Origin: a virus | Virus record (IMG/VR): IMGVR_UViG_3300007734_000760 | Span: 62,001-126,000 of that record | Strand: one strand, 5' to 3' | DNA: 64,000 bases | In this document: piece by piece, positions 37,439-58,359 of the stretch | Layout: the number at the start of each line of letters is the position of its first letter | Numbering within the stretch: the first letter of the stretch is position 1 | Position numbers and translations under genes: made by a program | The notes under the pieces: model-generated | Database searches by the model: none | The model's input: only the letters and a program-made list of their open reading frames with translations | What the model was told of the DNA's origin: nothing

Positions 37439-38215
37439 TTATAAAAGTAAAGACTCTGCTACATAAATTCCATGTGCTCCACTAACAGTAATACCACGAG
37501 CACTTAAAGCATCTCCTACAAAATGTACATTTGGATAGTCATTTAATGATAAATTATTATAATTTACTAGTGGTTCAGGACTTAAATACTTGACCTCGGG
37601 CATATATACGCCCCAATCATCTCCCATTTCAGGAAATACAATTTGCATTTCTGTAATAAAATCTTCAATATATTGAGCATATTCTTCACCTAATGCTTCA
37701 AATAAAGAATCCATTGTATCTACTTGAATTGCTGATACTGTATTGCCTTCAGATGTTAAAGCTGGTTTACGAGTACGATTAGGTGAATAATAAGTGCCAG
37801 TACCATCAATTTGTAATTTTTTAACTACTTCTCTACTCCATTTAAATGGATCTTCAATACCTTTGATTTCCATTAAAATACCAAAATTAGTCATATCATT
37901 TCTAAATTGTTCACCTTTTTTAGCATGACCATTGTAAGTAACATCACCATATGTTTCTTCAACAGCTACATATGCTGCGTTATTATTTGTACAAAATGAA
38001 CGTAATGATACTTTATCAAATTTCTTATATAATTTAAAATCGTAACTTACATCAATTAATTTCTGGAAATATTTTTGTGGTGCTTCAAAACGGACCCCCA
38101 ATTGCACACTCTTGCTTTCAGTAGGTAAATCATATTTTTGAGCTAATTTAGCTGAGAAATCAATTCCAGCTTTTCCTGTACCTACAATACATTTATCAAA
38201 TTTTATTTTTCTCAT
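37439..38215 (-). CDS. FAD-dependent oxidoreductase, C-terminal half
   Basis: The C-terminal 258 residues of a flavin dehydrogenase of the type often grouped as uncharacterised FAD-dependent dehydrogenases. I take the ATG at 38215 (MRKIKFDKCIVGTGKAGIDFSAK). A TTG start at 38248 would add MVINGNIKTSN, which is out-of-frame translation of the end of the endonuclease gene. The end, NVHFVGDALSARGITVSGAHGIYVAESL, is the second FAD-binding GD motif. The N-terminal half with the Rossmann GxGxxG motif is at 39321-39839. The two parts would join as ...ETGEIILKD / RKIKFDKCIVGTGKAG..., so one gene has been split by an insertion of about 1.1 kb. Confidence 0.85.
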   Translation of the reverse strand: MRKIKFDKCIVGTGKAGIDFSAKLAQKYDLPTESKSVQLGVRFEAPQKYFQKLIDVSYDFKLYKKFDKVSLRSFCTNNNAAYVAVEETYGDVTYNGHAKKGEQFRNDMTNFGILMEIKGIEDPFKWSREVVKKLQIDGTGTYYSPNRTRKPALTSEGNTVSAIQVDTMDSLFEALGEEYAQYIEDFITEMQIVFPEMGDDWGVYMPEVKYLSPEPLVNYNNLSLNDYPNVHFVGDALSARGITVSGAHGIYVAESLLL

Positions 38216-38216
38216 A

Positions 38217-38843
38217 TTACTTGTTTTTATATTTCCATTTATAACCAAATGCTGTTTTTATTTTACCTTTACAAGCTAAATTTATACAACCATTTGTAAT
38301 TTTCTTATTTAAAGATAAGTAAGCTTCTGAAATAGAAGACCATTCTTTAATAAAATTATCTTGTAAATCATATTGAAGAATAGATTTATTCATAACCCCC
38401 ATCATAGATTTACTTTTCTTTTCACAACTCTCCTTACTCATCTTTTTACCTTTATTAGGTGATATATGGCCTTTTAACCCTTCAGATATTTTTCTTTTAG
38501 ATTCTTCAGAGTGTTTCATTCCTGTAGTACCAGCTTTAACACCACATTCTGCTATATTAGCTAATATATAACCTTTATTTCTTAAATCCAATTCTATTTC
38601 TCTTTCTTTTAATAATGCCTCTTCTTCACTTAATCCTTCAAATAATATTTTAGATTCAAATACACCATTATTTTTATTTACAATATTATGCCAGTATTGG
38701 TTTCTACCATATTTTGATTTATCTCGTTTAGGTATTCCTTTTCCAACATAAAATGGTTCATTTATATCAGGTCGTATATGAATATAAACTATAAAATTAT
38801 TGTTTTGTTTTTTTCTCGTGATATTTTTGTTTAAGTTTTTCAT
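38217..38843 (-). CDS. GIY-YIG homing endonuclease
   Basis: I start this at the ATG at 38843 (MKNLNKNITRKKQNN); a longer frame from 38909 would overlap a 47-residue protein-like frame. The GIY-YIG-type N-domain has FIVYIHIRPDINEPFYVGKG. Next come NUMOD3-like repeats (GMKHSEESKRKISEGLKG, then PNKGKKMSKES) and a C-terminal NUMOD1-like unit (ILQYDLQDNFIKEWSSISEA) ending in FGYKWKYKNK. Such mobile enzymes cut DNA near their own site to spread. It lies in the middle of the split oxidoreductase gene, the likely site of its insertion. Whether it is still active cannot be judged. Confidence 0.88.
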   Translation of the reverse strand: MKNLNKNITRKKQNNNFIVYIHIRPDINEPFYVGKGIPKRDKSKYGRNQYWHNIVNKNNGVFESKILFEGLSEEEALLKEREIELDLRNKGYILANIAECGVKAGTTGMKHSEESKRKISEGLKGHISPNKGKKMSKESCEKKSKSMMGVMNKSILQYDLQDNFIKEWSSISEAYLSLNKKITNGCINLACKGKIKTAFGYKWKYKNK

Positions 38844-38940
38844 CGATTTTTTCTTTATTAGACCAGTAATATTTCTTACTATATTCTCGTTGTTTAAGAA
38901 TACGTTCATCTTCTGTTTGGTATTTTTTGATACGTCCCAT
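38797..38940 (-). CDS. Small basic ORF preceding the endonuclease
   Basis: A 47-residue frame, MGRIKKYQTEDERILKQREYSKKYYWSNKEKIDEK..., from an ATG that is four bases after an ATATTTATAAT motif. It overlaps the start of the GIY-YIG gene by 47 bases in another frame. The sequence is Lys/Glu/Tyr-rich and reminds me of the basic N-termini (MGRxKKYxTxEExLxxKRxxxxKYY) of phage HNH/GIY-YIG proteins, so it may be a remnant or an accessory peptide of the mobile element. It is too short for certainty. Confidence 0.5.
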   Translation of the reverse strand: MGRIKKYQTEDERILKQREYSKKYYWSNKEKIDEKLKQKYHEKKTKQ

Positions 38941-38942
38941 CG

Positions 38943-38953
38943 ATTATAAATAT
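38943..38953 (-). promoter_or_regulatory. ATATTTATAAT promoter-like motif
   Basis: Coding-strand motif three bases before the 47-residue ORF that leads into the GIY-YIG gene in the split oxidoreductase, so the mobile insert may carry its own promoter. Confidence 0.45.
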
Positions 38954-38972
38954 TACAGATCTAAGAAAAAAT

Positions 38973-39299
38973 CTAAGAAAGTGCCTCTATTTTTGATTTT
39001 AAACTTTCTAAATTATCAAAAGGTTTTACTTTAGATAAATCCCACCCTAATTCACCTGCAGATTTTGTATCTCCTGTTGAATTCTTCATAATGATATAAT
39101 CATCTAAATCTTCTCCTAATTCATTTTCTAATGAGTATAATACTGATTTTAATCTATCAATAGGTAAAGAAGTATAAATAGGTTCAGTACTTAAATAAAT
39201 ACTATAGTTATTTATATGGCTTGGGTGGGTAAATTTATTTTCACTTAATACTTTATTAATTTCCTCTTTAATAATTTGTTGTAATTCAGATTTTTTCAT
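38973..39299 (-). CDS. Leader-bearing small protein inside the split gene
   Basis: A 108-residue protein. Its first 20 residues, MKKSELQQIIKEEINKVLSE, are a clear example of the amphipathic leader ending in L-S-E that recurs in this phage. The rest (IYTSLPIDRLKSVLYSLENELGED...) is a small acidic domain I do not recognise. It is inserted, with the GIY-YIG gene, between the two halves of the oxidoreductase. A TATTTATAT motif lies in the 21-base gap after the first half. Confidence 0.65.
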   Translation of the reverse strand: MKKSELQQIIKEEINKVLSENKFTHPSHINNYSIYLSTEPIYTSLPIDRLKSVLYSLENELGEDLDDYIIMKNSTGDTKSAGELGWDLSKVKPFDNLESLKSKIEALS

Positions 39300-39320
39300 G
39301 TTTATGTTTTGATATAAATA

Positions 39321-39839
39321 TTAGTCTTTTAATATTATCTCACCAGTTTCAAAATCAATATCAGTAACTTCCGTATTCCAAATGAAGTTAACTCCTTTAT
39401 CAATTAAATATGAATACCAAGCCTTAGCAATCTCATGTAAATAGTTTGAGCCAATGTGCCATACTGGGAATAAACGTAAACCAAAATATGGTTTAATAAA
39501 TTCAGGTTCTTTTTGTGGATCAGAACAGAATATTTCTTCTGGTTTAGGATGAAAACGAGTAAAGTTATCTACTACTTGTTTCATTAATTCCATTGCTTTA
39601 TCTTCACCACAATATTTTGCTAATTGACCTCCAATTTCAGTATGGTAAGTTAATTTACCATCACTCCAACCACCAGCACCTAACATACCTTCCATTACCT
39701 CTTCAGGTTTGCGGTTATATGGATCTTGTCCTTTATCTATGATTGTGATTAGATCTCCAGGATATCCATTATCTACTAATTTAGTAGCAGCGTTAATACC
39801 TGCTACTCCTGCTCCAATAATTACAATTTTTTTATTCAT
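39321..39839 (-). CDS. FAD-dependent oxidoreductase, N-terminal half
   Basis: The first 172 residues of a flavin dehydrogenase. The Rossmann dinucleotide-binding motif is IVIIGAGVAGINAATKLVDNGY (GxGxxG at residues 8-13) with the acidic end of the second strand at IIDKGQDP. MLGAGGWSDGKLTYH, HPKPEEIFCSDP and the WNTEVTDIDFETGEI strand are typical of this dehydrogenase family. The frame stops right after GEIILKD. The rest continues at 38215. The two halves could assemble into a working enzyme, as with other phage genes split by homing endonucleases, or the enzyme may be dead. Confidence 0.85.
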   Translation of the reverse strand: MNKKIVIIGAGVAGINAATKLVDNGYPGDLITIIDKGQDPYNRKPEEVMEGMLGAGGWSDGKLTYHTEIGGQLAKYCGEDKAMELMKQVVDNFTRFHPKPEEIFCSDPQKEPEFIKPYFGLRLFPVWHIGSNYLHEIAKAWYSYLIDKGVNFIWNTEVTDIDFETGEIILKD

Positions 39840-56328: not shown

Positions 56329-57278
56329 ATTGTTTTTAATTTATTCTCAATTAAGTTTGAGAAGGTTAGTGGTAATGTTTTTTGAATAAGATTAGTAAAT
56401 TTTTCAAATCCCATATCAGAAGGATCTTTTTCATTTATGTCTACTAAATAAACTTCTTTACCCTCATTCATTAGTGTTTCACAAAAGTTTAAAGCTTGTT
56501 TAATAGCATCCTTGTCTAAAGCTATGTATATTTTTTCAACTGATGAGTTAATGATTTTTTTCATTAATTCAGGTTGAATGTTTTTACCTAATAAAGGAAT
56601 AGCATTACGTTTAATAGCTATAGCATCAAATATACCTTCACATAAAACAAGAGGTACATTCCAATTTATAAATAATTCTAATCCAATTATGTCTCTTGAC
56701 ACATCTGGATTTTTATATTTTATTTTAGAATTTTTATTAAAACTGCGTGATGTAAAGTAATTTAAATTACCGTTTGAATCATATGATGGTAATATAATCA
56801 TATTAGAATAAACGCCAAATTCACAGTATCCTATATTATATTTAAGTATATCGATTTTATTAATACCTCGTTTATTTAAATAATGTATGGCTTGTTTAGC
56901 GGTAAGATTACTTGGTGGATTTAATAAAGATATAAATTCTATAGGTAAAGATACTCTTTTAAGTGTTGTTTCTTGGCGATTATCTTTAGGTGATGATTTA
57001 ATTAAAAATCTTAATTCATTTACTTTATCTGAATCAGCCTCTATTTTTTTAAATAATGTAGTTAGTTTTTTACCTCTAAATTGATCACAAACCCAACAAT
57101 GGTATGATTGAAAGTTAGAAGAAATCTCATCTAAATTAATTTCTAATTTTAGTTTAGTAGGATGACATCCTTTAGGACAAAAAAATGCTCTGTTACCTTT
57201 AGAAGTAGATTTAGATTTTCCTAATACCGATTCTAATAAATAAATTAGAGCACTATTTGTGTTTCCATTTATAACCAT
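56325..57278 (-). CDS. DnaG-type DNA primase, T4 gp61-like
   Basis: A 317-residue primase. A zinc-binding N-domain shows C34, C38-H39, C61 and C64 (FFCPKGCHP, then YHCWVCDQF). The TOPRIM core has LVLCEGIFDAIAIK (Glu215) and IYIALDKDA (Asp256, Asp258). The length is near T4 gp61 (342). It primes lagging-strand synthesis with a helicase, which lies outside this window. The ATG and the following codons (MVINGN) lie inside the last 26 bases of the homing endonuclease gene, so the start was probably recruited when the element arrived. The true N-terminus may once have been different. Confidence 0.88.
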   Translation of the reverse strand: MVINGNTNSALIYLLESVLGKSKSTSKGNRAFFCPKGCHPTKLKLEINLDEISSNFQSYHCWVCDQFRGKKLTTLFKKIEADSDKVNELRFLIKSSPKDNRQETTLKRVSLPIEFISLLNPPSNLTAKQAIHYLNKRGINKIDILKYNIGYCEFGVYSNMIILPSYDSNGNLNYFTSRSFNKNSKIKYKNPDVSRDIIGLELFINWNVPLVLCEGIFDAIAIKRNAIPLLGKNIQPELMKKIINSSVEKIYIALDKDAIKQALNFCETLMNEGKEVYLVDINEKDPSDMGFEKFTNLIQKTLPLTFSNLIENKLKTI

Positions 57279-57888
57279 AAGCTGTTTTTTGTTTTTTTAA
57301 GCAACAATCTGCTATGTTTCTACTAGTTCTTTTTTTATCCGTTCTGGTATTCTCTTCAGCTTCAGAAGCAGTAATCCATTCTTTTATAAAATTTTCTTGT
57401 AAATCATATTGTAAAACAGGTTTACCTTTAGTATTTTTAGTATTCTCAGAAATTTTTCTTTTCCAATTTTCAGAAATTTTTCTTCCTATTAATGATTTAC
57501 TTATGTTTGTTTTCCAATTTTTAGTTAATATTCTTTCACTTTTATGGATTTCAGAAATTAATTTTTTAGTATTTTCTTTCATCGGTTTAGATAAACCTGT
57601 ATGTGTTTTACTTATTAATTTTTTAGTTTTAATACTGTGATGTGTAACACCCCCACCCCCACTATTTTTATTTTCTAATTTAAAATTCCAACTTTTAAAT
57701 AAACTTATATAATGTTTTTCCCAAAATTTCCAATCTTTAGTTAAAACTATATCTAATAAAACTATATTTACTCCGTTTTGAAATTTATGATGATTAGATA
57801 ATCTTTGTCTTAAAGAACATGATGTTTTTCCTATATAAAACGGAATATTATCTTTTTCTAAAAAATATATTTTAGTTAAAACATCCAT
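57253..57888 (-). CDS. GIY-YIG homing endonuclease
   Basis: A 211-residue mobile endonuclease. The GIY-YIG domain: IYFLEKDNIPFYIGKTSCSLRQRLSNH (residues 7-33), then WKFWEKHYISLF. Next come NUMOD3-like repeats (TKKLISKTHTGLSKP, GRKISENWKRKISE) and a NUMOD1-like unit (VLQYDLQENFIKEWITASEA) that ends in YGYKWKHK. The C-terminal unit and the last codons are almost the same as in the enzyme at 38217, although the middle differs. It sits directly upstream of the primase gene and overlaps its start. Confidence 0.9.
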   Translation of the reverse strand: MDVLTKIYFLEKDNIPFYIGKTSCSLRQRLSNHHKFQNGVNIVLLDIVLTKDWKFWEKHYISLFKSWNFKLENKNSGGGGVTHHSIKTKKLISKTHTGLSKPMKENTKKLISEIHKSERILTKNWKTNISKSLIGRKISENWKRKISENTKNTKGKPVLQYDLQENFIKEWITASEAEENTRTDKKRTSRNIADCCLKKQKTAYGYKWKHK

Positions 57889-57924: not shown

Positions 57925-58359
57925 TTAAAAATCTCTTCTATGAAATTTTGCTAGAATATTATCGTTATAACTGTCAATGAACAATACATCTTCTTTAACT
58001 TGATGCATTACCTCATAATATGTTAATTGTTTTTTTGTTTTGCAGATTGTTAAGATTTCTCTTTTAAATTTATCTTCACCTAATGATTTAACATCGTTTA
58101 AAAGAGGTTTACAACTACCCCAATATGTTAACCAATTTGATTCAGATATAATTAATTTTGTAGATGGTGTTCTACCACGTTGTGTTGGTAAAGCAGCAAT
58201 TTCTTTTTTACCTAGTTTTTTATTAATTTTTGATAAAAGTTGTTTTTTACCTATATATGATTTACCATTTACTAAATTAGTAATTCGATAAACATATCCA
58301 AATGTGCCTTCAGGGAAATCTTCTGTTTTTTCTATAACTTTATTTTCGTATAACCACAT
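57925..58359 (-). CDS. GIY-YIG nuclease, conserved T4-like type
   Basis: A 144-residue protein with FGYVYRITNLVNGKSYIGKKQLLS (the GYVY...SYIG core), WLTYWGSCKPLLNDVKSLGEDKFKREIL and YYEVMHQVKEDVL. This compact form is conserved in many T4-like phages and often annotated as SegE-like or as a GIY-YIG endonuclease. Unlike the two homing enzymes it lacks NUMOD repeats and does not interrupt a gene. It may be a resident DNA-processing nuclease. It starts five bases after the stop of the small leader-bearing gene upstream. Confidence 0.85.
   Translation of the reverse strand: MWLYENKVIEKTEDFPEGTFGYVYRITNLVNGKSYIGKKQLLSKINKKLGKKEIAALPTQRGRTPSTKLIISESNWLTYWGSCKPLLNDVKSLGEDKFKREILTICKTKKQLTYYEVMHQVKEDVLFIDSYNDNILAKFHRRDF

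Follow-up and report, generated by a model that had tools for sequence, protein, structure and literature searches.

How a gene for a FAD-dependent dehydrogenase comes to lie in two pieces in a phage genome, and whether the pieces are rejoined in the mRNA or act as separate chains, is the question raised by a locus in the window analyzed here, a 64-kb stretch out of a 159,934-base virus record. The phage is assigned to the T4-like myoviruses because its major capsid protein (MCP, gp23-type) shares 56% identity with the MCP of Flavobacterium phage immuto; its host is probably a member of the Bacteroidetes. The dehydrogenase is encoded by two ORFs on the minus strand, 1,105 bp apart (38216-39320). 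The N-half (39321..39839, minus strand; 172 aa) carries the GxGxxG dinucleotide-binding motif, matches Pyr_redox_2 (E 4e-8), and ends GEIILKD-TAA, and the C-half (37439..38215, minus strand; 258 aa) begins MRKIKFDKCIVGTGKAG, carries the FVGDA motif, and runs to its stop. An ORF check confirmed both ends as given in the initial annotation, in which the N-half stopped after GEIILKD and the C-half was separate. The two halves correspond to positions 2-162 and 187-418, respectively, of one PHROG dehydrogenase family (phrog_12409), which bears out the earlier proposal that, joined, they read as a single FAD-dependent dehydrogenase. The N-half is 82-89% identical to the N-terminal part of its best viral homologues, and the C-half is 90% identical to the C-terminal part of an intact homologue, L002. 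Translation of the C-half is best placed at the ATG at 38215, which is conserved in relatives; the TTG at 38248 was rejected as a mechanical ORF start. Because the FAD-binding motifs are divided between both chains, FAD binding should need both halves, and the N- and C-chains very probably assemble into one enzyme.

Viral contigs scanned with each half yielded 158 distinct loci, among which 99 distinct homologue proteins form a single open frame across the break site; the uninterrupted homologues for which the initial annotation had suggested searching were thus found in viruses, and intact homologues also occur in a few cellular metagenome bins. One intact gene (L242 2050-4636) has a GIY-YIG homing endonuclease gene (HEG) on each side, like a small HEG island. 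In the intact homologues, the break falls in a hairpin whose length ranges from ~8 to 40 residues and whose end reads YDELIFAVGKSG; in the model predicted for L013, this hairpin is flanked by strands 167-170 and 179-182. Structure prediction of the intact enzyme by AF2 reached a pLDDT of 72.7, a middling confidence, and the best fold match of the model is VP0956 (PDB 3nlc; E 8.7e-16, TM 0.58), a FAD-dependent protein of Vibrio whose likeness covers both halves, although it is 19% identical, longer, unsplit, and deposited as uncharacterised. Two DNA-pattern scans, one for the C-half start and one for the N-half end, increased the split loci to 22 distinct ones, a count that depends on the aim of the scans and is not a frequency. 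All are broken at the same variable hairpin, with inserts of ~370-1,630 bp, so that the division of the gene into two parts, as initially annotated, cannot be put down to chance or assembly error.

The earlier description of a 1.1-kb insert with a GIY-YIG/NUMOD enzyme, a 47-residue ORF, and a leader protein held in every part: the insert contains a leader-bearing 108-aa gene, a 47-aa ORF, and a GIY-YIG/NUMOD HEG. The cassette opens with a left-end module (38941..38981, minus strand; CTTTCTTAGATTTTTTCTTAGATCTGTAATATTTATAATCG) that is nearly identical in eight split loci, followed by the 47-aa ORF (38797..38940, minus strand; phrog_17714, E 1.2e-4), which overlaps the 5' end of the HEG ORF (38217..38909, minus strand). 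The latter encodes a GIY-YIG enzyme with NUMOD3 and NUMOD1, of which NUMOD3 is significant (E 8.5e-8) and NUMOD1 falls just below the cut-off (22.1 vs 22.8 bits), and it matches the PHROG "homing endonuclease" (E 3e-20). The Pfam GIY-YIG model did not score the HEG, and phmmer against the PDB gave no useful match. The predicted fold is beta-beta-alpha-beta-alpha, and Foldseek matched it to the I-TevI catalytic domain (probability 0.97, weak E of 0.13); the sequence FIVYIHIRPDINEPFYVGKG and this predicted I-TevI-like fold support the assignment as a GIY-YIG endonuclease. Where the two frames overlap, most substitutions are silent in the 47-aa frame but change the residue in the HEG frame, from which the 47-aa ORF is judged real. 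Because the overlap is constrained in the 47-aa frame, the HEG should start later than 38909, its first ~35 codons probably being left untranslated and the nuclease proper beginning at about residue 36 (~38804). A start at the first ATG (38909) was accordingly ruled out for residues 1-35; AF2 confidence there is mostly <50, and the relatives L169 and L205 begin near FIVY. A programmed frameshift at an A-rich run was also considered, and no homologue with a fused 47-aa ORF and HEG was found. The HEGs at the break site are modular, the same left end being combined with different nuclease domains (e.g. L198) and different tails. In the window, two more GIY-YIG-type genes (57253-57888 and 57925-58359) lie beside a primase-like gene.

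The promoter-like motifs that had been noted in the insert are present as a TAATATTTATA box (39313..39323, minus strand) that begins at the N-half stop codon, ahead of the cargo gene, and is conserved directly after the N-half in most split loci, but the box is not particular to the insert and precedes many phage genes. TATTTATA occurs upstream of 32 genes, compared with 5 for its reverse complement, TATAAATA, the T4 late-promoter word. A TAATATTTATAAT box stands ahead of structural genes and upstream of many minus-strand genes of the window. The presence of the TAATATTTATA box before many structural genes as well as the cargo fits expression of the cargo alongside late genes.

Could the insert, with its HEG, instead be a self-splicing intron of group I (or II), the halves being joined in the mRNA? 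HEGs of the GIY-YIG/NUMOD kind are characteristic of group I introns, the HEG has a weak match to TIGR01453, and the boundaries in several relatives would fit splice sites after ..GAT and after ..G, with the joined reading in frame. However, Rfam was empty for the region at E up to 5 and for the whole window at gathering thresholds, with neither a group I core (P3-P8) nor a group II intron even at permissive thresholds, and the inserts have no common RNA-sized core. In the window, the N-half has C as its final base, and L055, L169, L200, and L205 have differing N-half ends. The smallest insert measures 369 bp, of which 276 are ORF, leaving no space for an intron core. In addition, the stop codon after the N-half and the ATG of the C-half are retained in every split locus. 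We consider an intron very improbable; the preference of the initial annotation for a split gene is upheld by the lack of an Rfam intron, the 369-bp insert, and the stop and ATG kept throughout.

The split relatives suggest how the two genes are held apart. The C-half junction is readable in 20 of the 22 loci, and in 18 of these the C-half is preceded by a HEG 3' tail, belonging to an intact HEG in 8 and forming a scar in 10. Two tail types occur, A (..GGTTATAAATGGAAATATAAAAACAATTAAT) and B (..AAATATAAAAATTGGATAAAAAT), and against any intact gene their best match is only 19/31 or 16/26. In the window, the type A tail (38216..38243, minus strand; ..TATAAATGGAAATATAAAAACAAGTAAT) abuts the C-half, the HEG stop TAA being followed by one base and then by the C-half ATG. 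The C-half start region thus lies in the tail, as TAA-T-ATG in type A and as an overlapping ATGA in type B, and we infer that the tail outlives the rest of the HEG because it holds this region. Halves that are separate without an endonuclease, which the initial annotation had regarded as evidence against its reading, are found at face value in 12 of the 20 readable loci, where the full HEG is lacking, but 11 of the 12 keep a full or partial HEG tail; because 10 have the 3' tail and an eleventh has part of it, these loci are read as HEG losses. In L060, for example, a HEG end persists in decayed form, interrupted by an in-frame stop. An alternative is that the split came first, e.g. through the intergenic insertion of a leader gene together with its promoter box, and that the HEG invaded the gap later, as is suspected for gene 43 of phage 25 (PMC2988022). 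The TAATATTTATA box right behind the N-half in most loci would suit this order of events, as would L068 and L069, which have a leader gene without a clear HEG tail (TAAT at most in L068). On the other hand, a HEG or its tail adjoins the C-half in those 18 of 20 loci, the insert of L055 (875 bp) is a HEG cassette alone, and L061 keeps part of tail B together with cargo homologous to that of L068. A split preceding the HEG is therefore unlikely, and a split made by the HEG is preferred.

Both halves are under purifying selection like intact genes, the median pN/pS being 0.23 for N-halves and 0.29 for C-halves (split pairs) against 0.26 for intact pairs, which does not by itself show joint action; internal stops are absent from both halves in all 19 complete loci. 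These values bear on the idea that the gene is dispensable and decaying, its two fragments yielding no enzyme. No dehydrogenase match was found in Flavobacterium phage immuto, representing the closest isolated relatives by capsid protein, so the gene is not essential in the wider group, yet frames free of stops and pN/pS as low as in intact genes argue against decay, which we regard as decidedly unlikely.

Evidence that the split moved between phages comes from quick trees of modest support and from the flank of the insert. Split and intact alleles intermingle in the N-half tree, where well-supported branches force at least five changes, and in the C-half tree 15 of 19 split alleles form one group, the other four, that of the window included, lying inside intact ones. 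The C-half of the window is placed there because it is mosaic and L002-like from codon 41 on: codons 5-40 are 50-73% identical to intact L002 and 72-100% identical to split L060, whereas from codon 41 the identity to L002 is 89-100%. These ~40 codons, like other split alleles and unlike L002, delimit a putative co-conversion tract (38096..38215, minus strand). A like switch, to the sequence of other intact relatives, is seen in L060 and L036. The mosaic is as expected from homing with flank co-conversion, and its pattern suggests that the window copy was acquired through recombination into an intact gene. A general rise of identity between split alleles toward the junction was also considered; it is unclear on the N side and clear only in single cases.

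Our analyses therefore favor, with a probability of roughly 85%, a split made by the HEG and spread by homing, with later HEG loss and exchange of cargo. A free-standing GIY-YIG cassette (left-end module, 47-aa ORF, and HEG) would have entered the variable hairpin loop of the dehydrogenase gene and broken it into two separately translated genes, with translation of the C-half beginning by termination-reinitiation at the HEG 3' end. The insert would spread when intact alleles of co-infecting phages are cut and then repaired from the split allele, insert and flanking codons being carried over together. In many phages, deletion would later have left only the 3' tail of the HEG, and exchangeable small genes, mostly with a leader like T4 capsid-targeting sequences, would afterwards have come to occupy the site. 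HEG cleavage, assembly of the halves, translational coupling, and cargo packaging are the steps that we infer. Beyond the initial annotation, the comparison of loci suggests that the insert was mobile and shows that its cargo differs from phage to phage.

In the window, the cargo gene (38973..39299, minus strand) encodes a 108-aa protein of unknown function with the leader MKKSELQQIIKEEINKVLSE, in which (L/I)xE sites end at residues 12 (IKE) and 20 (LSE). In T4, the first 10 residues of IPIII are enough to get it packaged, and the gp21 protease cleaves behind L/I-x-E (PMC9026906). Packaging of the cargo in the capsid is plausible because the leader resembles the T4 capsid-targeting sequence in length and motif. 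A leader such as MKKSELQQIIKEEINKVLSE or MIKLINILKE is found in 17 of 28 non-HEG insert ORFs against 27 of 218 genome ORFs (Fisher p 5.5e-8), with a search pattern written after the leaders had been seen and ~7 of the genome matches expected by chance. Proteins of about 20 genes, within the window (31206-58706) and in other parts of the genome, have in common an amphipathic leader at the N terminus (MKKSELxxIIKEE.., MIKLINILKE..) whose (L/I)xE ends at residue ~10-12 and often at 17-20, and they resemble a large set of capsid-targeted internal proteins. In ~20 related phages, the same cut site is seen to hold a HEG, HEG remains, or changing small genes, a pattern by which mobile cargo has come to dock at the broken gene.

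A scan for the left-end sequence found the module also in the nrdA gene of sister phages. There, a split intein interrupts the gene, and a HEG, often with a leader gene too, lies between the intein halves; nrdA of the window phage is uninterrupted at the corresponding point. Such nrdA loci (L231 2500-5749; L235 1-3052; L237 102-3679; L303, L306, L308, and L310) have intein halves CVTGDTKI.. and ..NFYANNxVVHNC, between which a small ORF, often a leader gene, the left-end module, and another GIY-YIG HEG are found. The shared module raises the thought that a split intein might trans-splice the dehydrogenase halves, as it probably does in sister-phage nrdA. However, no intein halves were found at the dehydrogenase on comparison with intact homologues, the N-half ending right at the break and the C-half aligning from about its fifth residue, and we give this explanation practically no weight against two separate chains. 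The module also occurs before a terminase, a phoH-like/HD region, and a glycosyltransferase-like gene (named from sequence by eye). Wherever readable, it is accompanied by the 47-aa ORF, and it precedes HEGs of different catalytic type, HNH-like included (window 38797-38981; L198, L292, L304, and L305); it may serve HEGs in common as a leader for expression or regulation. A broader and more tentative possibility, which we hold somewhat doubtful, is that HEG-broken genes are shared docking sites served by one exchangeable left-end module with different HEGs and that, at the dehydrogenase and at the intein-split nrdA, the module stands beside genes for leader-tagged proteins that enter the head and are injected. 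Should that be so, homing would be a route for phages to swap injected proteins and, if leader-tagged cargo enters with the DNA, would be linked to their exchange.

Genes split by homing endonucleases are known from a few single cases. Dassa et al. (2009, cited in PMC3229294) reportedly described "fractured genes" whose halves carry split inteins and are separated by a free-standing HEG, a layout that sister-phage nrdA has, whereas the dehydrogenase is without intein halves. The best parallel to the dehydrogenase is nrdA/mobE of Aeromonas phage Aeh1, which likewise has a free-standing HEG in a coding region, no intron, and two chains, its halves having been shown to make active enzyme (reviewed in PMC2988022). 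The structural features of that system recur here, with a gene continuous in relatives, a HEG with its own frame between the halves, and no splicing element, and, as judged by sequence comparison, the dehydrogenase is probably a gene in pieces made by a HEG through the same mechanism as Aeh1 nrdA and not by an intron. In contrast to Aeh1, where mobE is an HNH enzyme, the enzyme here is GIY-YIG/NUMOD in another host gene, and the ~22 loci differ in cargo and include HEG losses and tails. T4 gene 39/60 with mobA and gene 43A/43B of Aeromonas phage 25 with a seg gene are similar in that an enzyme gene of a T4-like phage is split beside a free-standing HEG, but neither is a dehydrogenase, and repeated cargo exchange is not reported in the text consulted (PMC2988022). 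HEG islands are the nearest idea in the literature consulted, since their HEGs also move neighboring genes between phages and swap domains, although the layout differs, whole essential operons lying between two HEGs there and small genes lying by one HEG inside a broken gene here (PMC10448857). The T6 homing enzyme SegB has been tied to amplification of anti-defence genes (PMC13096335). In the dehydrogenase series, intact genes, HEG alone, HEG with cargo, and tail with cargo are seen together, which allows tests of the way in which a selfish insertion is made a permanent one, the C-half start lying against the HEG tail, and of broken genes as entry points for accessory genes. Compared with the known systems, the host gene, the large series of loci at all stages, the loss of the HEG with its tail kept, and the turnover of leader-tagged cargo are new.
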